Below, in pieces: positions 1,917 to 63,054 of a stretch of 64,000 bases of DNA. Positions within the stretch are counted from its first letter, which is position 1; each line of letters starts with the position of its first letter. The position numbers were made by a program, and so were the translations under genes. The notes under the pieces were generated by a model. It was given only the letters and a program-made list of their open reading frames with translations, had not been told where the DNA came from and made no database searches. The stretch comes from Solibacillus sp. FSL H8-0538 (GTDB taxonomy: Bacteria > Bacillota > Bacilli > Bacillales_A > Planococcaceae): NCBI RefSeq assembly GCF_038003525.1, contig NZ_JBBOPI010000001.1:1665001-1729000 (forward strand). The letters are read 5' to 3'.

Positions 1917-3764
1917 ATGAGAAAAATAACGTTCATTATGTTATTTGTGATGTTGTTTTGCAATGTACCAGCTGTTTTGGCCATGCAGGCAAGGACACCT
2001 TCAGGGATTCCTTATACTGAACTAATAGAGCATGTGGATGAATATGCAGCCAAATATATTGGTACAACAACAGCTGGAGCATCAGTATTGATGGTGAAAG
2101 ATGGAGAAATTATTTTGAATACGTCCTATGGCTATGCGGATGTCGAAAATAAAGTGAAAATTACACCCGAAACAGTTTTTGAATGGGGTTCTGTCACGAA
2201 GCTCCTTGTCTGGACGAGTGTGATGCAGCTTGTCGAGCAAGGGAAACTAGATTTAGAGGAAGATATTCGCGCCTATTTACCAGATGGATTTTTCACAAAA
2301 TTGCACTATGATAAGCCCATTACCATGCTAAACCTCATGCACCACAATGCTGGTTGGGAGGATAAATATACAGACTTATTCTATTTATCAGCGGAGGATT
2401 TAAAACCTTTGGAGGAAATGCTGCATATTGCCGAACCGTATCAGGTACACGAACCAGGAGAGGTTGTCGCCTATTCGAACTATGGGGTGGCACTAGCAGG
2501 GTATATTGTGGAACAGCTCTCGGGTCAACCGTATTATGACTATGTAAATAAACATATATTTAATGTTTTGGAGATGACGGATACAACGATTCATCCTTCA
2601 CAAAAAGATAATATTAAAGTAGCCACCAAAAGAGAAGAAATTTATGGGTATCGTGTCGATAGCAAGGAGGAATTTAGCGTTTCGAAAAATGAACGTGCTT
2701 ATATTGGTTTGTATCCTGCAGGTAGTGCCATCAGTACAATAGAAGATGCGTCAAAATTTATGTTGGCACTAATGCCGGAAGCGGGTACAAAGAGCCCTTT
2801 ATTTCAAAACAAAAGCACCTTAGATGAAATGCTCACTACTAGTGATTTCTACGGGAATGGCTTGCCACGAAATGCGCATGGATTTTGGGAAGGTATGTAT
2901 GCAGTAGATGTGTTAGAACATGCAGGGAATACGGATAGTTTTTCAAGTAACTTTACTTTTTCAGTGGATGAGAATTTGGGCGTTATTGTGATGACAAATC
3001 AAATGGGCGAAGCAGGGTTAAGTTATGGATTACCAACACTTTTGTATGGTGAGTATACAACACCGAATGGCAATCAAGTGCTTCCAGATACGCAGGTGAT
3101 TGAAGGGAATTACAGTGTAGCAAGACAAACATATAAAGGTTTCACAAAGTTGTACGGTTTGCTGACGATGTGGAAAATTCAAGCAGAAGATTCTAATGCT
3201 TTTAATGTTTTTGGGATGACTTTTGAACAAGTCTCCCCTTACATTTATCAATCTTCGAATGAATATAATTTATACCTTCATTTTATAATGAATGACAGTA
3301 AAGCGGAGATGGTATCAATGCCGACAAGTGATCTTCTACCTGTATCAAGGAATACGAGCATCTTTAGCGTTCTTAGTGTAATCGCGTTGTCTATAAGTGT
3401 CCTGTATACTTTAATTACTTTACTAATCATGTTAATAAATGCTATAAAAAATCGGTTCAAAAAAGTTGATATTACTGTGATGAAGGAGTGGCAAATGCTT
3501 TTTACTTTAGCTGGTCTCGTTCCGCTTGTTAATTTCATCATGCTTGCTAACAGAACATTAAATTATGCTTCCTATGCAACGCTTAAAATTCATTTTTGGG
3601 TGAATTACGCTTATATCGCCGTAGTGGTAATTAGTCTTTTTGCGATTATGGTGCAATGGAAGAAAACAAAGACTACGCGTAGACAGAAATTCGGTACTGT
3701 ACTTTCTTGTGTTTCGGCACTACTCCTTGTAGCTTTAATTATCGGTTGGGAGCTTTACTATTAG
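1917..3764 (+). CDS. Membrane-anchored serine hydrolase, beta-lactamase/PBP4*-like
   Basis: This 615-residue protein has an N-terminal signal peptide (about residues 1-22) and a beta-lactamase-type catalytic domain acting outside the cell on peptidoglycan peptides, D-amino-acid esters or similar substrates. Visible motifs are the S-x-x-K nucleophile (Ser92-Val-Thr-Lys95), the Y-x-N equivalent (Tyr186-Ser-Asn188) and an H-x-G motif (His-Ala-Gly, near residue 340). After the hydrolase domain and a linker, residues about 475-615 carry four or five hydrophobic helices, so the enzyme is held in the membrane at its C-terminal end. This layout resembles the FmtA/Pbp-related class C serine hydrolases of Bacillus. 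It is probably not a true beta-lactamase, and the substrate is unknown. Confidence 0.88.
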   Translation: MRKITFIMLFVMLFCNVPAVLAMQARTPSGIPYTELIEHVDEYAAKYIGTTTAGASVLMVKDGEIILNTSYGYADVENKVKITPETVFEWGSVTKLLVWTSVMQLVEQGKLDLEEDIRAYLPDGFFTKLHYDKPITMLNLMHHNAGWEDKYTDLFYLSAEDLKPLEEMLHIAEPYQVHEPGEVVAYSNYGVALAGYIVEQLSGQPYYDYVNKHIFNVLEMTDTTIHPSQKDNIKVATKREEIYGYRVDSKEEFSVSKNERAYIGLYPAGSAISTIEDASKFMLALMPEAGTKSPLFQNKSTLDEMLTTSDFYGNGLPRNAHGFWEGMYAVDVLEHAGNTDSFSSNFTFSVDENLGVIVMTNQMGEAGLSYGLPTLLYGEYTTPNGNQVLPDTQVIEGNYSVARQTYKGFTKLYGLLTMWKIQAEDSNAFNVFGMTFEQVSPYIYQSSNEYNLYLHFIMNDSKAEMVSMPTSDLLPVSRNTSIFSVLSVIALSISVLYTLITLLIMLINAIKNRFKKVDITVMKEWQMLFTLAGLVPLVNFIMLANRTLNYASYATLKIHFWVNYAYIAVVVISLFAIMVQWKKTKTTRRQKFGTVLSCVSALLLVALIIGWELYY

Positions 3765-52320: not shown

Positions 52321-52459
52321 TTGCTGAAAATTGGAATTATCGGTGTTGATACATCGGACGCATCAGTCATCAATAGAAATAGAAGAAACGCTCGAAATAA
52401 TCAAGTTCATGGAAGCGATTCAGACAAGTAAAAAACAAGGACGAGCAGTCGCACTTTAA
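52321..52459 (+). pseudogene. Internally deleted Gfo/Idh/MocA oxidoreductase gene
   Basis: The sequence begins at TTG 52321, after GAGGTGACAG, with the coding start of a Gfo/Idh/MocA enzyme (L-K-I-G-I-I-G-V-D-T-S-D-A-S-V, the Rossmann start). After about 50 bp it passes, in another frame, straight into the typical C-terminus of the same family (I-E-E-T-L-E-I-I-K-F-M-E-A-I-Q-T-S-K-K) and stops at TAA 52457-52459. About 900 bp of the middle is missing. It occupies the slot after the permease genes where a dehydrogenase would be expected. The stop overlaps the converging regulator stop by 4 bp. Confidence 0.75.
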
Positions 52460-53799
52460 TGCGTACTGAACTCCTCCTCACAAAAATTCAAATGAAAAAT
52501 CCGGCGTGGGCGTCCTTTATAGGAAACTTTTTCTTCGCCCACAATTGTTACAAGACCCGCATCTGTCCATTTCAGGAGAATGCGATTGGCACTTCGTAGT
52601 GTAATGTTTAAAGTAGTGGCGAGCTCTTGTGCAGTGTAATCCATTTTATTATGCTTCGCAATCCGTGCCATTAGCTTAGACATATAAGATGCGGACATAC
52701 CGGCTTTTTCAGCCCGGTGCAAAATGTCGCGATCGGTGACAACGAGCTGGTAACACTCATAATTCGTCTGCATCGCTAAATCAACGGGACCAATGACACT
52801 TTGATCTTCACGCACAATATAGCATACATCATCGTTCAGCTCCATCGATTGGTGAAGTGCTTGGATTGCGTGCCCACCAGATTCGGCAGCAGTTCGCCCG
52901 AAGCCCACGCCCAGGCTTGTTGTAAGGTGGAAGTTTTCTTTTAGTATTTTTAACAGTGGGATAAATTTATAGCCCCTTGTTTCGCGCTCAAAAATACCAC
53001 GTGTCGTCATAAAAGCATACTGATTGTTCACTAAATGGATACCATGCCCATCAAGCGACTGTACGTATTGCGCAAAAGCTTGTTCAATTTTTTGCTTTAG
53101 TAAATGTGGGGAAGAAGACTTTGCCATAATGTCCTCGATATTATGGCAGTGTAGTAAGCCGTACACAATTTGCGTTTCTTTATTGCGCCGAGAAGTGGTG
53201 GACAGCAATGACCGTTCAAATGCGACCGACATATCTTGCTTTGTTGGTGTGACCAGTTCAAAAGGGATAGCACGTGCAACAAGATGGGTTGCCACTTGTG
53301 GAATACACGTAATGATGGCAGCACCGTCATAATAGTTGATAGTGTGAAATTCAATAATATCCTCAATCGGCGGCACGGATTTGTTTAACTCGAACAATTG
53401 AAGTTCGCAACTATGCTCGAGCTCATTTAATAGTTTGTTTAAATACTTTTCTTCAATTGTATCGACAGACAGTTTAGCGGGTTTTAATGTTTGGCAAACA
53501 AGAAAAAGTGATCGATACAAACCTGTTGTCAGCCCCGGCATATGATGAACTGGAATTGTAAACGTACAATGCTGTTGTGCTTGTAAGTAACTGAACGAAT
53601 CCGTAAACATCATCACTTCAACATGGGTCATTAACGTTTCAATGGCTTCAATGAAATTGTGTTGTTTATCTATTATATGGAAAAACGGTTTGAAATTGGG
53701 GAAAGCAAGGATAACTTCTTTTAGTTGTTGCACTACAGATGTGGTCGTAATTATTGCGATATGAATTTCTGGGATGTTTTGATTTAGTTGCTTGCTCAT
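52456..53799 (-). CDS. Transcriptional regulator with nucleotide-cyclase-like domain and winged helix
   Basis: This 447-residue protein has no transmembrane helix. Residues about 1-200 form an alpha/beta region of the kind seen in response-regulator or periplasmic-binding-like sensors; about 215-350 resemble a degenerate GGDEF/GTP cyclohydrolase III-type nucleotide-binding fold (Q-I-V-Y-G-L-L-H-C, then T-S-L-G-V-G-F-G-R-T-A-A-E-S). Residues about 375-430 are a winged helix-turn-helix (T-A-Q-E-L-A-T-T-L-N-I-T-L-R-S-A-N-R-I-L). It sits between the importer and catabolic operons and is probably their regulator. The ligand is unknown. The ribosome binding site is AGGAGG. Confidence 0.75.
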   Translation of the reverse strand: MSKQLNQNIPEIHIAIITTTSVVQQLKEVILAFPNFKPFFHIIDKQHNFIEAIETLMTHVEVMMFTDSFSYLQAQQHCTFTIPVHHMPGLTTGLYRSLFLVCQTLKPAKLSVDTIEEKYLNKLLNELEHSCELQLFELNKSVPPIEDIIEFHTINYYDGAAIITCIPQVATHLVARAIPFELVTPTKQDMSVAFERSLLSTTSRRNKETQIVYGLLHCHNIEDIMAKSSSPHLLKQKIEQAFAQYVQSLDGHGIHLVNNQYAFMTTRGIFERETRGYKFIPLLKILKENFHLTTSLGVGFGRTAAESGGHAIQALHQSMELNDDVCYIVREDQSVIGPVDLAMQTNYECYQLVVTDRDILHRAEKAGMSASYMSKLMARIAKHNKMDYTAQELATTLNITLRSANRILLKWTDAGLVTIVGEEKVSYKGRPRRIFHLNFCEEEFSTH

Positions 53800-53886
53800 A
53801 TGAAACCTCCTACAACCGAAAATACGTTAAATCTACTATTATAGTAAACTAGTTATCGAGATAATGTCAAAATATTCAATAAATGT

Positions 53887-53898
53887 TTGTAAATACAA
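53887..53898 (+). promoter_or_regulatory. Palindrome upstream of catabolic operon
   Basis: TTGTA-aa-TACAA is a perfect 5-2-5 palindrome 17 bp before the epimerase start. TACAA(C) half-sites also occur upstream of the importer (49084 and 49094), so a shared regulator site is possible. Confidence 0.3.
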
Positions 53899-53915
53899 TT
53901 CGAGGAGTGGTCGCA

Positions 53916-54932
53916 ATGAATCGCGTGGCGCAATTAGAACAATTCATGACAAAGCCGTCATCAGCATTAATAGAAGATCTAAAACAGATTGACGGTGATA
54001 TTTTAATATTAGGCATTGGCGGGAAAATGGGGCCGACACTCGCAAAGATGACAAAGCGTGCCATTGATGAAGCAGGGCTACAGAAGCGTGTAATTGGTGT
54101 ATCGCGTTTTTCAGCTGGTGCATTGCAGCAAGAACTAGAGGATGCCGGTATTGAAACGATCGCAGCAGATTTATTAAATGAAGACCAACTACAGGGGCTA
54201 CCCGATGTGAAAAACGTTATTTTCATGGCGGGAAATAAATTTGGAACGACGGGTAATGAACATTTCACATGGGCAATGAATGCGTATTTACCTGGCCGTG
54301 TTGCAGAGAAATATAAAAATTCGCGTATTGTCGCCTTTTCATCGGGCAATATTTATCCCTTTTCAGAAGTGACAAAGGGCAATTGCTCAGAGGATATCGT
54401 GCCTAGTCCGATTGGGGAGTATGCACAGTCTTGCTTAGGGCGTGAGCGCGTGCTTACGAATTTTTCGATTCGCAATCATACACCGCTTGTTTTATTCCGC
54501 CTAAATTATGCAATTGATATGCGCTACGGTGTATTACTTGAAGTGGCAAAGGCGGTACACGAAGAACGTGCGATTGATTTAACGACAGGTAGTGTGAACG
54601 TTATTTGGCAAGGAGATGCGAATGAATATGCACTGCGCTCACTGCTACTTTGTTCGTCACCACCGAAAATTTTAAATGTGACAGGACCGGAAACGATTTC
54701 GGTGCGCTGGTTAGCAAAAGAATTCGGCAACCGCTTCGATAAGCAGCCCGTTTTTGAAGGGAATGAGCAAACAACCGCACTACTCAATACAGCGTCACAG
54801 GCACATCAATTATTTGGCTATCCGTCTGTCACATTGCAAGAAATGATTGATCGAACAGTATCTTGGATTCGTGAAGGTGGCGAAACATACAATAAGCCAA
54901 CCCATTTCCAAGAACGAAAAGGGGCGTTTTAA
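53916..54932 (+). CDS. NAD(P)-dependent epimerase/dehydratase family protein with YxxxC motif
   Basis: This 338-residue extended-SDR enzyme has the NAD(P)-binding G-I-G-G-K-M-G-P loop (residues 33-40) and a Ser-Gly-Asn segment (F-S-S-G-N-I-Y-P, about 141-148). The expected catalytic Y-x-x-x-K reads Tyr169-Ala-Gln-Ser-Cys173, so Lys is replaced by Cys. This suggests altered chemistry rather than a typical sugar epimerase. The start is ATG 53916, after GAGGAGTGG. It is the first gene of the long coupled operon, with its stop overlapping the next start (TAATG). Confidence 0.86.
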   Translation: MNRVAQLEQFMTKPSSALIEDLKQIDGDILILGIGGKMGPTLAKMTKRAIDEAGLQKRVIGVSRFSAGALQQELEDAGIETIAADLLNEDQLQGLPDVKNVIFMAGNKFGTTGNEHFTWAMNAYLPGRVAEKYKNSRIVAFSSGNIYPFSEVTKGNCSEDIVPSPIGEYAQSCLGRERVLTNFSIRNHTPLVLFRLNYAIDMRYGVLLEVAKAVHEERAIDLTTGSVNVIWQGDANEYALRSLLLCSSPPKILNVTGPETISVRWLAKEFGNRFDKQPVFEGNEQTTALLNTASQAHQLFGYPSVTLQEMIDRTVSWIREGGETYNKPTHFQERKGAF

Positions 54933-55993
54933 TGTTGCAGCCAACAGTGAAGAAAAGCTTGTTTGACGGCGCATTTATCCCTGCGCACCCATTAGCATTA
55001 AACGAGGACCGTACATTAGATGAATTAAGTCAGCGTGCATTAACGCGCTATTATATTGAGGCGGGTGTTGGCGGACTTGCAGTAGGTGTCCATACGACGC
55101 AGTTTGAAATTCGCAATCCGCAGTTCAATTTATATGAGCGTGTTCTTACGCTTGCTATGGAAGAAATGAAACGTGCACATGTTGGCGAGGACTTTATAAA
55201 AATTGGCGGTGTTTGTGGGCCAACAGAGCAAGCAGTGAAGGAAGCGCAGTTTTTAAAGGACACTGGATATAATCTAGCCCTTTTAAGTATGGGTGGTTTA
55301 GATTATTCAGAGGCGCAGCTACTTGAGCGTACGCGTGTAGTAGCTGCCGTTATTCCGGTCGTAGGATTTTACTTACAAACATCCGTCGGCGGTCGCAAGC
55401 TATCTTATGAATTTTGGTGTGAGCTAGCTGATATCGAAAATGTTTACGCCATTAAAGTAGCGCCGTTTAATCGTTACCAAACATTCGATGTTGTGCGTGC
55501 TGTTTGTCAATCTAGTCGCAATGAGGAAATCGCTATCTATACAGGCAATGATGATAATATTGTCGCGGATTTATTATCCACGTATAAAGTACGTGTTGGT
55601 GATAAAACCGTGCACAAGCAAATTATTGGCGGATTACTCGGACACTGGTCTGTTTGGGTGAAAACGGCTGTAGCGTACTTTGAAGATATAAAGCGCGTGC
55701 GGAATGGTCGGCTCATCCCGACAGAATTATTAACACGAGGGCTTGAAATTACCGATGCGAATGCGGCATTTTTTGATCCCCAGCATGATTTTAAAGGGAG
55801 TATTGCGGGCATTAACGAAGTACTCGCACGTCAAGGGCTGCTTCAGGGCAATTGGTGCTTAATGGATCATGAAAAACTTAGTCCAAATCAAGCAGAGGAA
55901 ATTACGCGTGTGTATGAAAGCTATCCACATCTTCATGATGATGTATTCGTTGCAGCGAATTTAGGGAAATGGAAGTCGGGTGATCAGTTATGA
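54932..55993 (+). CDS. DHDPS/N-acetylneuraminate-lyase family aldolase or dehydratase
   Basis: This 353-residue TIM-barrel enzyme of the dihydrodipicolinate synthase superfamily forms a Schiff base with a keto acid. The candidate catalytic Lys175 (Y-A-I-K-V-A-P-F-N) and Tyr147 (V-G-F-Y-L-Q-T) are at the usual spacing. The G-x-G-G-L-A-V-G motif near residue 46 is also present, but the customary T-T-G-E after it reads V-H-T-T-Q, so it is not DapA. It is more likely a lyase or dehydratase of a 2-keto-deoxy sugar acid. It overlaps both neighbours. Confidence 0.9.
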   Translation: MLQPTVKKSLFDGAFIPAHPLALNEDRTLDELSQRALTRYYIEAGVGGLAVGVHTTQFEIRNPQFNLYERVLTLAMEEMKRAHVGEDFIKIGGVCGPTEQAVKEAQFLKDTGYNLALLSMGGLDYSEAQLLERTRVVAAVIPVVGFYLQTSVGGRKLSYEFWCELADIENVYAIKVAPFNRYQTFDVVRAVCQSSRNEEIAIYTGNDDNIVADLLSTYKVRVGDKTVHKQIIGGLLGHWSVWVKTAVAYFEDIKRVRNGRLIPTELLTRGLEITDANAAFFDPQHDFKGSIAGINEVLARQGLLQGNWCLMDHEKLSPNQAEEITRVYESYPHLHDDVFVAANLGKWKSGDQL

Positions 55994-56985
55994 AATCGTT
56001 AATGGCGATTGATGGTATGGCGCAAGTTGTGGAGCTGGAAGTACCTGAATTACTTCCACAACATGTGCGTGTAAAAACACATTTTACGGCTGTTTCACCA
56101 GGAACAGAACGCTTACTAATTGGTAGCAGTGCAAGTGGTGACCGCCGATTAGGCTATAGTGCAGTGGGTGAAATTATTGAGCTCGGAGAAGGTGTTAACA
56201 ACTACTCGGTAGGAGATATCGTGGCGTGCTACGGTGCACCTTATGTGAGCCATTCAAGTGAATTAGTTGTACCAAAAACGCTCATTTCCAAAGTGCCTTC
56301 GCATGTTCCAACAATTCATGCGTCGTTTGCAGCGCATGGGGCCATTGCTATACATGCAATTCGCAAGGCACATTTGCAGTTCGGCGAAACCGTCATCATT
56401 GTTGGCTTAGGTGTACTTGGCCAAATGATTGCGAAAATTTGTAGTGCGGCAGCGTATGAAGTGATTGCCTATGAGCCTATAGAAGCGCGCGCCAACATGA
56501 TTAACGGCGAAGGCTCGATTCATGCATTTTCATCTTTATCAAAGATGGCGCATTTTTTAGATCAGATGACAGAGGGACATGGTGCAGATGCTGTACTCCT
56601 TTGTACAGGTGGGAAGCATTCTGAAACAACGGCGCAAAGTTTAGATTGGGTTCGTAAGCAGGGGAAAATCGTGATTGTTGGAGACGTGGAGCCTGTTTTT
56701 CCGCGTGAGAAAATGTTCGGGAAAGAAGCCGCAATCCTTATTTCACGTGCAGGGGGGCCTGGTCGTTATGACCCACTTTATGAAAAAATGGCGGTGGATT
56801 ACCCATATGGCTATGTACGCTGGACGGAAGGACGGAATGTGAAGGAGTTTATCCGTTTACTTGCACAAAATCGCATCGATATCACGCCGTTTATTAAAAG
56901 TATTGTGGATATTAAGGATGCGGCAACGATTTATGATGACTTGCTAAAACAACCTGAGGAATTGACGAAAATTATTCGTTTTTAG
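55990..56985 (+). CDS. Medium-chain (MDR) zinc-type dehydrogenase family protein
   Basis: This 331-residue MDR-superfamily protein has the N-terminal GroES-like region (V-R-V-K-T-H-F-T-A-V-S-P-G-T-E) and a Rossmann domain with G-L-G-V-L-G (about residues 138-143). The usual catalytic-zinc Cys/His ligands and the four-Cys structural zinc site are absent, so it is probably zinc-free. Similar proteins sit beside Gfo/Idh genes and act on sugar derivatives. It overlaps the previous gene by 4 bp. Substrate unknown. Confidence 0.88.
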   Translation: MKSLMAIDGMAQVVELEVPELLPQHVRVKTHFTAVSPGTERLLIGSSASGDRRLGYSAVGEIIELGEGVNNYSVGDIVACYGAPYVSHSSELVVPKTLISKVPSHVPTIHASFAAHGAIAIHAIRKAHLQFGETVIIVGLGVLGQMIAKICSAAAYEVIAYEPIEARANMINGEGSIHAFSSLSKMAHFLDQMTEGHGADAVLLCTGGKHSETTAQSLDWVRKQGKIVIVGDVEPVFPREKMFGKEAAILISRAGGPGRYDPLYEKMAVDYPYGYVRWTEGRNVKEFIRLLAQNRIDITPFIKSIVDIKDAATIYDDLLKQPEELTKIIRF

Positions 56986-57003
56986 CTAAAGGAGAGAACA
57001 GTG

Positions 57004-58056
57004 ATGTTAAAAGTAGGGGTAATTGGTGGGGGCTCGATTTCGGAATTTCATATTAAACCATATTTGGCAAATGATCAGGTGCAACTTATTGCGTTATGCG
57101 ACCGAAACGAGGTACGTCTAGCAAAAATGGGCGAGGAGTACGGGGTGACGAATTTATATACAGCGTACAAGGATCTTCTTGCTAATCCGGACGTGGATGC
57201 CGTCAGTATTTGTACGTGGAATAATACGCATGCAGAGATTGCGATTCAGGCGCTCAATGCGGGCAAGCATGTGTTACTTGAGAAGCCACTTAGCATGACA
57301 GTTGAGGAAGCGCTTGCGGTGGAACAAGCAGTACAGCGTTCAGGCAAGCTATTACAAGTTGGCTATGTACGTCGCCATGCATCGAATATTCACGTGCTTA
57401 AGAAGTTTATTGATGCGGGAGATCTGGGCGAGATTTATTACGCAAAAGCGTCATGTCTCCGTCGCTTGGGAAATCCTGGAGGTTGGTTTAGTGATATCGC
57501 AAAATCAGGCGGTGGTCCATTAATGGATTTAGGCGTCCATATGATTGATATTTGCTGGTATTTGATGGGCAAGCCAAAGCCGGTTTCTGTTAGTGGCAAT
57601 ACATATACAAGACTTGGCAATCGCAAGCACATCGAAAAGTTATCCTTTTATAAGGCAGCAGATTATGATGCACAGCACAATGACGTAGAAGATTTAGCGA
57701 ATGCGTTAATACGTTTTGACAATGGGGCTTCATTATTTGTTGACGTAAGTTTTACATTACAAGCTAAGCAAGATGAGGTTAGTGTGAAACTATACGGTGA
57801 AAAAGGAGGTGCCGAAGTGGAACCAGCGCTTGCAATTGTTGGCGAAAAGCATAATACAGTCATCAATATGACGCCGCAAATTGATGACTTAGCTTTTGAT
57901 TTTGCCGGTGCCTTTGCGAATGAAATTAATCATTTTGTAGCGTGTTGCTTAACAGGTAAAGAAAGCCTAGCACCGGTTGCAGACGGTGTGGCGGTCATGA
58001 AAATGTTATGTGCAGTATACGAATCCGCTAATACAGGTAAGGAAATTATCTTATAA
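57004..58056 (+). CDS. Gfo/Idh/MocA family oxidoreductase 1
   Basis: This 350-residue NAD(P)-dependent enzyme oxidises or reduces a sugar or sugar-derivative carbonyl. The Rossmann domain has V-G-V-I-G-G-G-S-I-S-E-F-H, and the conserved E-K-P motif (L-L-E-K-P-L-S-M) follows near residue 94. The catalytic region reads D-L-G-V-H-M-I-D-I-C-W-Y-L, holding the usual Asp and His. The start is ATG 57004, after AAAGGAGAG. It lies between the MDR gene and a gene of unknown function. Confidence 0.94.
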   Translation: MLKVGVIGGGSISEFHIKPYLANDQVQLIALCDRNEVRLAKMGEEYGVTNLYTAYKDLLANPDVDAVSICTWNNTHAEIAIQALNAGKHVLLEKPLSMTVEEALAVEQAVQRSGKLLQVGYVRRHASNIHVLKKFIDAGDLGEIYYAKASCLRRLGNPGGWFSDIAKSGGGPLMDLGVHMIDICWYLMGKPKPVSVSGNTYTRLGNRKHIEKLSFYKAADYDAQHNDVEDLANALIRFDNGASLFVDVSFTLQAKQDEVSVKLYGEKGGAEVEPALAIVGEKHNTVINMTPQIDDLAFDFAGAFANEINHFVACCLTGKESLAPVADGVAVMKMLCAVYESANTGKEIIL

Positions 58057-58070
58057 AAGGGGTGTCATGG

Positions 58071-58742
58071 ATGCCGAAATTCGTGATCGCAAACATCGAT
58101 AAAGTAAATAGCGCACAAACATTTCAACCTCATCGGATTGGTGTTGATGAGACGCCAATTGATCCTAATGCAGAGTTAACCTATGTTGCTCAGGTTTTTT
58201 TTTCAGCGGGGGATGAATTGGACTTATATGTGCCTGCTGAAATACTTAACGAAGCACGAGCGAAATACGTGTATTTTGATTTAGCGCTATATCCGTTTTT
58301 TGCCGGAGTGAAGAATGCTGTGGGAGATCAGGAAAAGAGCGGAGTTGTACGATTCCGTCGCACAGGTTTGGAAAGTAAATTAGTCGGGGACATTTATGTA
58401 CTTTCGAAATTATTCGGAAAGCCGAGTCAAACACATGTAAAGATACGTGAGATTGAACGAAAAGCACATATCATCGTGTTATTAAAATTTGGGCAATCGA
58501 TTATGGCACATATCGAATTCACGACAGGTGGTAATGAACGTCTGGAGTTCGAATACAGCAGTCCGCAACAAATTATTGAATTTGATAGTGATGAGATGCG
58601 ACCAGTGCTACCAACAACAAAAACGAAGCTACCGCTAATGTATACCGTTGATGCAATAACAGAAACAGCTGTGGAAATTACGGACGAGCTAAAGCAAGAA
58701 TTACAAGCAATTGAACAGTTACTGGGAGGTGTGGTTATATGA
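58071..58742 (+). CDS. Protein of unknown function between two Gfo/Idh/MocA genes
   Basis: This 223-residue soluble protein matches no family I know. The middle (about residues 128-170: H-I-I-V-L-L-K-F-G-Q-S-I-M-A-H-I-E-F, then R-L-E-F-E-Y and I-I-E-F-D-S) is reminiscent of the C-terminal beta domain of Gfo/Idh/MocA enzymes, but no Rossmann domain is present. It might act as a substrate-binding or assembly partner of a neighbouring dehydrogenase. The start is ATG 58071, after AAAAGGGG; it overlaps the next gene by 4 bp (ATGA). Confidence 0.7.
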   Translation: MPKFVIANIDKVNSAQTFQPHRIGVDETPIDPNAELTYVAQVFFSAGDELDLYVPAEILNEARAKYVYFDLALYPFFAGVKNAVGDQEKSGVVRFRRTGLESKLVGDIYVLSKLFGKPSQTHVKIREIERKAHIIVLLKFGQSIMAHIEFTTGGNERLEFEYSSPQQIIEFDSDEMRPVLPTTKTKLPLMYTVDAITETAVEITDELKQELQAIEQLLGGVVI

Positions 58743-59713
58743 ACATTGGCATTATGAGTTTTGCACATATTCACGCGACAAGTTATGCAACTGCGATTCG
58801 CCGCATCCCAGGGGTGACATTAACAGCTATTTATGATACAGACGTGGAACGGGGAAAAGAGGCGGCTGCTCAGTTTGGTGCGACGTTTTACAATAGTGAA
58901 GCTTCCTTTTTACAAACAGATATTGAGGCGGTAGTAATTTGTAGTGAAAATGTGCTACATAAACAGATGGCCGTTGCCGCTGCGAACGCAAAAAAGCATA
59001 TTTTATGTGAAAAGCCGATTGCGACAACGCTAGCAGATGCGGAAGAAATGATTCGTAGTTGTGAGATAAACGGGGTTATGCTACAAATTGCCTACCCGGT
59101 TCGTTATAGCCAGCCGATCATCGAGCTAAAAAAAGCGATAGATAATAGGGAGCTCGGTGAAATTGTTGCCATTCGTACAACAAATCGTGGGCAAAATCCA
59201 GGCGGGTGGTTTATTGATGCTAACTTATCTGGAGGTGGTGCAGTCCTTGATCATACCGTGCATATGGTTGATATTATGCGTTGGTATTTAAGTGATGAAG
59301 TTGTTGAAGTGACAGCATTTGCAGATCGCTACTTTACGGATATTCATACAGATGATGCGGGAATTATGACACTACAATTTGGGGGTGGGGTGATTGCCTC
59401 ACATGATGCGAGCTGGTCTCGTTTCCCGCAATTTCCTACTTGGGGCGACGTCATGATTGAAGTAATCGGCACGAAGGACACCCGGAAAGTGGATGTGTTT
59501 AAGGAGCAGTTCCGTTTGTATGGCAAAGAAGAGCGTTCGCTAACCCATATGTACTGCGGCAATGATACGGATTTTGATTTAATTATCGATTTTCTAAAAA
59601 GCGTGCAGCAAAATAAAGCACCGGCAATTACTGGTTATGATGGCTTGAAATCTTTAGAAGTTGCTTTAGCTGCCTACGAATCTAGCAAAAAGAAACAACC
59701 AATACCTTTATAA
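58739..59713 (+). CDS. Gfo/Idh/MocA family oxidoreductase 2
   Basis: This 324-residue NAD(P)-dependent oxidoreductase has I-G-I-M-S-F-A-H-I-H-A at its start, C-E-K-P-I-A-T-T (about residues 92-99) and the catalytic D-H-T-V-H-M-V-D-I-M-R-W-Y-L. Its opening differs from the G-x-G-x-x-G norm (M-S-F-A-H-I-H), as in some divergent members. It differs clearly from the other Gfo/Idh enzyme, suggesting sequential steps such as oxidation and later re-reduction. Its start overlaps the preceding stop. Confidence 0.93.
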   Translation: MNIGIMSFAHIHATSYATAIRRIPGVTLTAIYDTDVERGKEAAAQFGATFYNSEASFLQTDIEAVVICSENVLHKQMAVAAANAKKHILCEKPIATTLADAEEMIRSCEINGVMLQIAYPVRYSQPIIELKKAIDNRELGEIVAIRTTNRGQNPGGWFIDANLSGGGAVLDHTVHMVDIMRWYLSDEVVEVTAFADRYFTDIHTDDAGIMTLQFGGGVIASHDASWSRFPQFPTWGDVMIEVIGTKDTRKVDVFKEQFRLYGKEERSLTHMYCGNDTDFDLIIDFLKSVQQNKAPAITGYDGLKSLEVALAAYESSKKKQPIPL

Positions 59714-59771: not shown

Positions 59772-61475
59772 ATGAAAACGATTTATTATACTTCGCGCGA
59801 TCCAGTAGTGGTGTTTGCGGTCAACGAATTGGCAAGTCAGCTGCAACAAGAACGTATTGTGCCACTTGAGCAATGGGGAAAGGTGCAGGAAACAGAACAT
59901 ACAGAAATCTTTTTACTAACGATGAAGGAGTATGTAGCATATTTTGCAGGAGAGCCAATCACGCTTTCAGTTGATGAATATACAATTATTCAAGAAAATC
60001 ATCGCTATTATATTACCGGCAATACACCGCGCGCGCTACTATACGGGGTGTACGGTTTTTGGCAACATGTGTTAGGGGTTGTGGCACTTTATTATGATGA
60101 GCTAGCTATAAAAGTAGGCGACAATACACTTGAAGTAGCTACTCGACGTGTCATTACACAAAAACCTAAATTTCGACGCCGCGGCAACGTACTTGAAACA
60201 TTAAATGATGTCGAATTTTTACAACATTTAGTTGATTGGGGTGTGAAAAATGGTCATAACGAGTATTTCTTTACCTTTTTCCTATGGGACGAGGTCAAAG
60301 ATGTTCTGGAGCCGGAACTTGCAAAGCGCGGCGTCAACGTTACATTAGGTGGCCATAGCTTGCGTTATTTGCTTGCGAAACTGGAGAACGAGCAGCGTTT
60401 AAGCAGTCAGGCAATTGACGGAGCAGTTGGCGATTTAGTTGGGGAAAAAACTGCGTTTACACAACAGTTTACTATCGAAAATGGTCAATTTTTTACACCG
60501 AATAATCCACTGCAACAGCGTGTCATTAAAGATATTGTGGCCATTTGTCAGGATGCACCAATGATCACGCGCATTTCACTTTGGCCGGAAGATATCGGCA
60601 TTGATGCAGAGCAAAGTGAGCAGTTTTTAACGCAGTATATTGCGTTTACGGATCAGTTGAAACTTGCACTCTTAGATAAGGGATTGTCTGTTGAGGTAGA
60701 GCATATCGTCTATAATGCAGGATTGGCGTGGCATATGTTAGAGCGGGCAGACCACAAGCCGTCAGAGCAATCCGATATATTATTTGCCTATTGGGGTCGT
60801 GATTATAGTAGGGGTCTTGCGGATAGCGGGAACGCTGGACAACGAGCATTATCAGCGCTGCAACACTGGAAAGCGTCATCTACTAAAGAGGTAACAATTT
60901 TTGAATATTACAGCGATCATTTTATGTTGAGTGAATTATTCCCGCCACTGCATAATCGTATTGCACAAGATATCGCACAGTACGAACAGCTACAATGTGA
61001 GGGGATTTTAAACTTAATCGTGCCTTTGCATAAACAAACGGCAGCGGAACCACATATGTCGTCTTACAATTATCAATGGAATCAGCACTGGAATAATGCG
61101 TTTTATTCGCGCCTGGCATGGGGAGAGGACTTTGCTGTCATTGAGCAGCAAATGTTCGCGCAATTTAACGACGCTGTACGCTATAAACAATTACTAGATA
61201 CGTTAGAGACGGAGCTAGCGCGTCATACGAACTGGAATTTCCCGCTATTTCCGTCGCGTGTTGTGGATGTTAAAAAGATTGATAGTAGTGAGTATGCAGC
61301 AATCATCTCACAGCAACTTCACCGTGCACATGAAGTAGTGAAGGATTTTACAGAAGAACCCCTTCATCCACAAACGGTTCAGGAAAAGATGGATTCCTAC
61401 TTCTTTATAATGCAAAGGCTGACGAAGCTTTATGCAGAGGCCTGGGCACAAAAGGTAGGTGAAGCGAGTGTTTGA
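59772..61475 (+). CDS. Glycoside-hydrolase-like protein (GH67/GH20 N-terminal-type domain)
   Basis: This 567-residue protein has no signal peptide, so it acts in the cytoplasm. Residues about 1-125 match the N-terminal non-catalytic domain shared by GH20, GH67 and DUF4838 proteins (Y-Y-I-T-G-N-T-P-R-A-L-L-Y-G-V-Y-G-F-W-Q-H). A larger region follows with likely barrel strands (N-E-Y-F-F-T-F-F-L-W-D, S-L-W-P-E-D-I-G, I-L-F-A-Y-W-G-R-D). Acidic residues E and D after W-P could be catalytic but this is guesswork. It may release a sugar from an imported oligosaccharide. It overlaps the next gene by 8 bp. Confidence 0.68.
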   Translation: MKTIYYTSRDPVVVFAVNELASQLQQERIVPLEQWGKVQETEHTEIFLLTMKEYVAYFAGEPITLSVDEYTIIQENHRYYITGNTPRALLYGVYGFWQHVLGVVALYYDELAIKVGDNTLEVATRRVITQKPKFRRRGNVLETLNDVEFLQHLVDWGVKNGHNEYFFTFFLWDEVKDVLEPELAKRGVNVTLGGHSLRYLLAKLENEQRLSSQAIDGAVGDLVGEKTAFTQQFTIENGQFFTPNNPLQQRVIKDIVAICQDAPMITRISLWPEDIGIDAEQSEQFLTQYIAFTDQLKLALLDKGLSVEVEHIVYNAGLAWHMLERADHKPSEQSDILFAYWGRDYSRGLADSGNAGQRALSALQHWKASSTKEVTIFEYYSDHFMLSELFPPLHNRIAQDIAQYEQLQCEGILNLIVPLHKQTAAEPHMSSYNYQWNQHWNNAFYSRLAWGEDFAVIEQQMFAQFNDAVRYKQLLDTLETELARHTNWNFPLFPSRVVDVKKIDSSEYAAIISQQLHRAHEVVKDFTEEPLHPQTVQEKMDSYFFIMQRLTKLYAEAWAQKVGEASV

Positions 61476-63054
61476 GTCGCTTTATTATTACAAGAAAAGT
61501 AAAGCAGTGAATCCGAGGACGGTGCAAGCTGATGCTGTAGTTTATGGTGCTACACCAGCAGGCATTACAGCGGCATTGCAACTGAAAAGCCGGGGATACG
61601 CCGTCATTATCGCAGAGTTTAGCCGACATATTGGCGGGATAAGTGCGAGCGGACTTGGTGCAACGGATTTAGGCGCAGAGCCAGCTGTAGGTGGATACGC
61701 AAGGCAGTTTTACAAAGAGGTGGCGGGACATTACGGCGTAGAAAAGCAGTTTACTTTTGAACCGCATGTTGCGCAGCGCATTTTCACAAAGTGGTTAACC
61801 GAAGCCGATATTCCGGTCTACACCGAGCAACATTTACAACAGGTATATACTAATAGTGGCGTTATTACAGCTATTTCTATGGAAGACGGCACACGTTTCG
61901 AAGCGAAAGTATGGTTAGATTGTAGCTATGAAGGCGATTTAATGGCGATGGCGGGCGTTTCGTACAAAGTAGGGCGCGAAGCTAATTCGACGTATAAAGA
62001 AATATATAACGGCATTCAGTTTGGTGCCCCACATCATAAGTTTGAAAAGTGGATTGATCCGTATGTAATTGAAGGAGATACGAGCAGTGGTTTACTTCAT
62101 GGCATTACAGAAGATAGCTCGCAGCAGCTCGGCTTTCAAGGGCAAGGTGATCACCGCATTCAAGCGTATAATTTCCGTATTTGTTTAACGACTGTACCAA
62201 ATAAGCTAGCATTTCCGAAGCCGCCAAATTACGATGCAACAAAATATGAATTGCTTCTGCGATATATCCAGTCTGGAGTGTGGGATGCATTGAAGCTCCA
62301 TACGCCATTACCGAATGACAAAACAGATTTAAATAATTACGGAGCGTTTTCAACGGATTACATCGGCATGAATTATGACTGGCCGGACGGAAGCTACCGT
62401 CGCCGTGAAGAAATTTTCCAAGCACATTTATCATATGTAATGGGGCTGTTGTACTTTTTAACGAATGATAACCGTGTCCCCCTATTTATTCGCCAACAAG
62501 TGAGTAAATACGGGTTACCACTGGATGAATTTAAAGATACGCATCACTGGCCACATCAACTGTATATACGTGAAGCACGTCGCATGATTTCCGATGTTAT
62601 CATGACGGATCACTACCCATTACAGCAGAAATTTGTTCACGATTCTATTGGGTTAGCTTCATTTCATATGGATTCCCATAATTGCCGCCGCATGGTAGTA
62701 GATGGACGTGTGGTAAATGAAGGGGATGTACAAGTAGCAGTAAGTCCATTTGCCATTTCTTATCAAGCGATTCGTCCGAAACGGGAAGAATGCGAAAACT
62801 TACTTGTCCCAGTTTGCCTTTCTGCTTCTCATATTGCGTACGGTTCGATTCGCATGGAGCCTGTCTTTATGATTATTGGGCAATCAGCGGGTATGGCGGC
62901 AGCACTTGCACTAGACAATAACTGTGCGGTTCAACAAGTTTCGTATGCCCGTTTGCGCGCACTGCTCGAACAGGCAGGGCAAGTGCTTGACTGGGACACG
63001 TCCATACAAGATGACCCACTAGCCCGTATGAAAGAAACGTTTGGCAAAGTATAA
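61468..63054 (+). CDS. FAD-dependent oxidoreductase (FAD_oxidored family)
   Basis: This 528-residue protein begins with an FAD-binding Rossmann segment (D-A-V-V-Y-G-A-T-P-A-G-I-T-A-A-L-Q-L) and continues with R-H-I-G-G-I-S-A-S-G-L-G and the distal V-G-Q-S-A-G-M-A-A-A-L-A end typical of the FAD_oxidored (PF12831-like) group. These are frequent in polysaccharide- and sugar-utilisation loci, where substrates are rarely known. I prefer GTG 61468, spaced from AAAGGTAGGTG. No signal peptide is present. It probably performs a flavin-dependent step in the pathway. Confidence 0.9.
   Translation: MFESLYYYKKSKAVNPRTVQADAVVYGATPAGITAALQLKSRGYAVIIAEFSRHIGGISASGLGATDLGAEPAVGGYARQFYKEVAGHYGVEKQFTFEPHVAQRIFTKWLTEADIPVYTEQHLQQVYTNSGVITAISMEDGTRFEAKVWLDCSYEGDLMAMAGVSYKVGREANSTYKEIYNGIQFGAPHHKFEKWIDPYVIEGDTSSGLLHGITEDSSQQLGFQGQGDHRIQAYNFRICLTTVPNKLAFPKPPNYDATKYELLLRYIQSGVWDALKLHTPLPNDKTDLNNYGAFSTDYIGMNYDWPDGSYRRREEIFQAHLSYVMGLLYFLTNDNRVPLFIRQQVSKYGLPLDEFKDTHHWPHQLYIREARRMISDVIMTDHYPLQQKFVHDSIGLASFHMDSHNCRRMVVDGRVVNEGDVQVAVSPFAISYQAIRPKREECENLLVPVCLSASHIAYGSIRMEPVFMIIGQSAGMAAALALDNNCAVQQVSYARLRALLEQAGQVLDWDTSIQDDPLARMKETFGKV

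Follow-up and report, generated by a model that had tools for sequence, protein, structure and literature searches.

The window analysed here is a stretch of 64,000 nucleotides from Solibacillus sp. FSL H8-0538. It carries a gene for a small protein, which we call SHORT, between the genes of two Gfo/Idh/MocA dehydrogenases, the upstream enzyme GfoA and the downstream enzyme GfoB. The features of the locus are:

53883–56985, + strand: SDR/epimerase-like, DHDPS-family and zinc-type alcohol dehydrogenase-like genes of the same cluster as SHORT
57001–58056, + strand: GfoA, second Gfo/Idh/MocA dehydrogenase of the cluster (Pfam match); not a fixed neighbour of SHORT
58071–58742, + strand: SHORT, 223 aa, very probably a degenerate Gfo/Idh/MocA homologue that kept the C-terminal domain and lost the NAD site and the active site
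58071–58262, + strand: N-terminal remnant of SHORT (residues 1 to about 64), without GxGxxG, too short for a Rossmann domain and aligned with low confidence
58263–58742, + strand: C-terminal region of SHORT (about residue 65 to the end), very probably homologous to the Gfo/Idh/MocA C-terminal beta-sheet domain (hhalign alignment)
58739–58742, + strand: ATGA, in which the stop of SHORT overlaps the start of GfoB
58739–59713, + strand: GfoB, intact Gfo/Idh/MocA dehydrogenase (Pfam match), proposed partner of SHORT
59772–63054, + strand: GH67N-like 567-aa protein (weak match) and FAD-dependent oxidoreductase (PF12831) of the SHORT cluster

Translation of 58071–58742 gave 223 residues followed by a stop, in agreement with the initial annotation; a GTG at 58062 is an alternative start that would add three residues (226 aa). 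The placement between two Gfo/Idh/MocA genes also held, since the flanking ORFs match Pfam models of this family, as did the 4-bp overlap with the second of them. SHORT also contains, ahead of the GfoB start, a GGGAGGTG stretch. The presence of ABC transporter, SDR, DHDPS-family, MDR, FAD oxidoreductase and GNAT genes suggests that the cluster may serve to import a sugar derivative and degrade it oxidatively. The 567-aa protein (59772–61475) had as its sole match a weak one to the GH67 N-terminal domain (E 0.005, under the cut-off). On the − strand, at 52456–53799, lies the gene for a divergent putative regulator of 447 aa, with a weak C-terminal HTH match only (PF13545, E 5e-4, under the cut-off); it is conserved beside many SHORT-related clusters.

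SHORT had been described as a protein of no recognised family, and indeed neither Pfam nor NCBIfam gave a match at E ≤ 1. A phmmer search of the PDB with SHORT reached only E ≥ 0.6 at best, and tblastn against plasmids gave no match. The window's own genome contains one SHORT copy; a second row (E 0.17) was not credible. Single-sequence searches found SHORT in 2 of 61 relatives and in 4 of 398 genomes of the class, the window's genome being counted in both, and at one locus in the named genome collection (Rossellomorea vietnamensis). For both order-wide searches we used a profile of six sequences (A1). It detected SHORT in 27 of the 261 genomes of the window's order and gave matches in 34 of 299 genomes of the order to which genome G407 belongs; the 36 rows from the latter comprised 15 SHORT proteins, three less decayed short proteins (G728, G678 and G733) and 18 full-length proteins. 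With repeats removed and the window included, there were 43 distinct SHORT loci, spanning 14 genera by our count from the two order-wide searches. The alignment and profile called A3 contain 37 of these 43. A3 found no Gfo structure in the PDB, and a Pfam scan of the 37 members taken singly yielded a weak C-domain match in four (best E 0.027) and no match to PF01408.

The full-length rows showed what occupies the SHORT slot elsewhere. Fourteen of the 18 come with a locus (L052–L065), and in 14/14 the protein has EKP and a GfoB homologue is encoded directly downstream; the other four rows from this order are without a locus and stand outside that count. L036, from the search of the window's order, likewise has a full-length Gfo directly upstream of a GfoB-like gene. 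These full-length slot-mates match solved Gfo/Idh/MocA structures (3ezy, E 2.2e-57). A search of 348 genomes of the phylum with A3 returned 14 rows outside the window's genome. All 14 were Gfo/Idh/MocA proteins with a Gfo gene directly downstream, and the S[FILM]AH of GfoB was visible in 13; among these rows, the start of L142 is masked and L145 is cut by a contig end. Within the window's order, G590 and G290 have a full-length protein in the SHORT slot, and their GfoB is only 45–46% identical. In the L124 cluster (genome G877), the regulator, SDR, DHDPS, MDR and GH67N-like genes known from the window recur, and a full-length protein takes the place of SHORT. Two sequences, L066 and L131, are transitional: they start part-way into the Rossmann domain and are without EKP, and their C-domain is recognisable, with weak Pfam matches (E 2.7e-5 and 5e-5) that both fall under the curated cut-off.

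Part of SHORT had initially been thought to resemble the Gfo/Idh C-terminal domain, and a profile–profile search had been proposed as a check. Comparison of A3 with the full-length slot-mates by hhalign covered the C-terminal domain with a probability of 98.6 (E 1.2e-15, score 111.4; the E-values refer to single comparisons). Against 16 other family profiles of the same loci, the best value was 24.9, for GfoC, itself a Gfo; GfoB gave 21.7 and GfoA 18.1. The similarity is therefore to one Gfo subfamily and not to the family as a whole. In 200 column shuffles of the trimmed alignment the maximum score was 25.3, compared with a true score of 105.9. Sixty shuffles of the untrimmed alignment included one that scored 134.1 over seven columns, above the true score; we attribute this outlier to gap-rich columns and regard it as an artefact. 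The second-highest score in this set was 22.4.

A tree of 73 C-domain sequences, with GfoA and GfoC as outgroup, was in line with the profile match. SHORT, transitional and full-length slot-mates formed one clade (support 99/99), the sister of which was the GfoB clade (100/99), with GfoA and GfoC outside. Within it, SHORT grouped with the transitional sequences (98/98). Several SHORT branches were long and were flagged by a program warning. The tree is compatible with descent of SHORT either from within the full-length rows or beside them, the branching among those rows being poorly resolved. The initial resemblance was thus borne out by both profile match and tree, and SHORT is almost certainly homologous to the Gfo/Idh/MocA C-terminal domain.

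The rest of the enzyme is largely gone. The dinucleotide motif GxGxxG was found in 0/37 SHORT proteins versus 15/15 full-length slot-mates, and the same counts were obtained for D-x3-H and for EKP at the aligned place (the EKP string occurs elsewhere in 2/37 SHORT proteins). An excerpt of PMC5969746 gives the catalytic residues of the family as Lys106, Asp191 and His195. In the profile alignment, S102 and G106 of the window protein stand, by our reading, at the positions of the catalytic Asp and His, and SHORT has a shortened loop ahead of the catalytic helix. The first 60 or so residues could be aligned with low confidence only. AlphaFold2, run on a two-row alignment, gave a pLDDT of 31.7 for SHORT. 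Compared with Gfo/Idh/MocA oxidoreductases (PF01408 plus PF02894/PF22725), SHORT thus shares a homologous C-domain and has its nearest full-length relatives in its own slot, but it is about 100 residues shorter and without the dinucleotide motif, the EKP lysine and Asp-x3-His. The suggestion that SHORT might be a split subunit was not supported: the sequences show a paralogue in which the Rossmann half and the active site have decayed, and a complete Gfo/Idh/MocA protein stands in the same slot elsewhere. By this comparison SHORT is a decayed paralogue and not half of a split gene.

We then asked to which dehydrogenase SHORT is tied. GfoB is encoded directly downstream at 43/43 loci, with an overlap of 4 bp at 41 and of 1 bp at two. 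Upstream, 27 loci have an unrelated PF01261 isomerase as the neighbour, 14 have GfoA and one has another gene; none was found at the remaining locus. In the window's order, the 27 genomes with SHORT, of 261, are the same 27 that have a GfoB of at least 60% identity. Since GfoB is fixed downstream and GfoA is not fixed upstream, SHORT is tied to GfoB and not, as had been supposed initially, to both dehydrogenases. Gene overlap is also common where the products do not touch.

GfoB itself may bear a trace of the change of partner. We compared 44 GfoB homologues encoded beside SHORT (43) or a transitional protein (1) with 30 encoded beside a full-length partner. The groups differ at 12 positions, six of which lie in residues 221–256 of the C-domain. 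Residue 256 is E in 44/44 versus Q in 30/30, and residue 222 is H in 44/44 versus L, I or V in 30/30. The diagnostic residues count as one evolutionary event, because the 44 cluster together, and other GfoB clades also have several private positions; we regard the pattern as a suggestive hint. At its start (58739–58790), GfoB of the window reads SFAHIH (S-x-A-x-x-H) in place of GxGxxG, and EKP and GGGxxxDHxVHxxD are kept. S[FILM]AH is present in all 74 GfoB homologues of the set, to which only sequences with the motif were admitted (the start of L142 is masked).

In Gfo/Idh/MocA oligomers the subunits make contact mainly through the C-terminal eight-stranded sheet, and the solved structures summarised in the same source are homo-dimers or homo-tetramers (PMC5969746, in extract). 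SHORT keeps the oligomerisation domain and has lost the rest, so that the best reading is of a subunit with a structural or regulatory role in a heteromer with GfoB. We consider it reasonably probable that SHORT is a non-catalytic subunit that joins GfoB via the retained C-terminal beta-sheet. The ancestor would have been a full-length Gfo/Idh/MocA dehydrogenase like those whose genes immediately precede GfoB homologues in other genomes. This first partner would, in one lineage of Bacilli, have lost its NAD-binding half and its catalytic residues and kept the C-terminal beta-sheet domain. SHORT would then pair with GfoB through the sheet, at a ratio fixed by translational coupling, and, like a "prozyme", would stabilise GfoB, activate it or tune its specificity.

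More tentatively, SHORT and GfoB might together make up a dehydrogenase that is an obligate heteromer and goes back to an older full-length pair found across Bacillota. SHORT would have shed its NAD domain and active site stepwise and GfoB would work with its unusual SFAHxH loop, neither chain having a standard dinucleotide motif; we regard this fuller version as possible but doubtful. If it were true, SHORT–GfoB would be, to our knowledge, the first Gfo/Idh/MocA heteromer in which a pseudo-subunit has no Rossmann domain. Dead paralogues that serve as subunits are of an already known kind; for Gfo/Idh/MocA, the limited literature that we searched, covering few subscription journals, described no Rossmann-less or heteromeric enzyme. 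A "heterotetramer" in PMC11489326 was rejected as a candidate, as the passage in question concerns another enzyme.

The nearest precedents are the trypanosomatid dead paralogues of deoxyhypusine synthase (PMC3663545) and of AdoMet decarboxylase, the prozyme (PMC6221367), both as described in excerpts of these papers. As proposed for SHORT, a dead paralogue is kept with a live enzyme, and SHORT is a catalytically dead paralogue of its partner, since its clade is sister to GfoB and its catalytic motifs are lost. The trypanosomatid proteins form activating heteromers, and their activation was measured, whereas we infer the fold of SHORT, its physical complex and its effect on GfoB from sequence. 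The precedents also belong to other enzyme families, and SHORT has in addition lost much of the cofactor domain. A conserved partner with the oligomerisation domain only would show the transition from a catalytic to a regulatory subunit, all stages of which (full-length, transitional and short) are present in living genomes. The unannotated SHORT gains a family identity, and GfoB expressed alone is predicted to be possibly misassembled or inactive.

We also considered that SHORT might be a stand-alone sugar-binding or carrier protein, not a stable subunit, that takes over an oxidised (keto) sugar made by GfoB and delivers it to the following enzyme. The Gfo C-domain is described as the substrate-binding domain in a portion of PMC5969746, and a PF01261 TIM-barrel isomerase is encoded directly upstream of SHORT at 27/43 loci, which would suit such a role. 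However, the catalytic loop and the Asp and His that line the sugar site are deleted or replaced in SHORT, and in the window no PF01261 isomerase adjoins it. We consider this function unlikely.

A further possibility is that SHORT is a decaying relic of little function, retained because its end holds the ribosome-binding site of GfoB. SHORT does evolve fast relative to GfoB: in the 17 informative of 18 close pairs its dN/dS was 0.10–0.38 as against 0 to 0.10 for GfoB, and it was the higher in 17/17, as would be expected of a loosely constrained protein too. The GGGAGGTG stretch before the GfoB start also sits inside SHORT. Against a relic, dN/dS is well below 1 in all 17 pairs, the frame is intact at 43/43 loci in 14 genera, and there are conserved residues specific to SHORT, such as a near-invariant Trp in E-W-S; moreover, 200 codons would not persist as a mere spacer. 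The SHORT gene is under purifying selection and, with homologous genes at 43 loci and dN/dS of 0.10–0.38, is more than a chance ORF. That it is a relic seems to us quite improbable.

Even less probable is that SHORT corresponds to the beta subunit found in C-glycoside deglycosidases, with the PF01261 isomerase as its partner. According to the available text of PMC8563793, these enzymes consist of a PF01261-like alpha subunit and a small beta-rich subunit (DgpB/CarC) and are encoded beside a Gfo dehydrogenase; SHORT is likewise a small protein whose clusters include a Gfo dehydrogenase and a TIM barrel of PF01261, the isomerase adjoining it at 27/43 loci. But the isomerase does not adjoin SHORT in the window, and at 16/43 loci it was not found next to it; the homology of SHORT is to Gfo proteins, and its origin would lie in the dehydrogenase family itself. 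We dropped this identity after the Pfam scan, in which 0/37 members matched at E ≤ 1 the family of the beta subunit, which we take to be DUF6379. Finally, the missing Pfam hit of SHORT itself, the low identity and the unconfident two-row AlphaFold2 model might be taken to mean that its fold is unrelated and similar to the Gfo C-domain through convergence only, but this is hardly credible given a profile score far above shuffles and other families, a slot common to SHORT and full-length Gfo proteins, and the existence of transitional sequences.

Two further arrangements were noted among related loci. Widespread in Bacillota is a unit of two genes, the first for a canonical Gfo and the second for an SFAH-type Gfo, which often overlap by a few bases (L133–L146, L094 and L095); this unit may itself encode a heteromer. 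A related cluster of genome G013 encodes a 279-aa protein (L097, positions 2651–3487) with a Gfo Rossmann match only (PF01408, residues 2–121).
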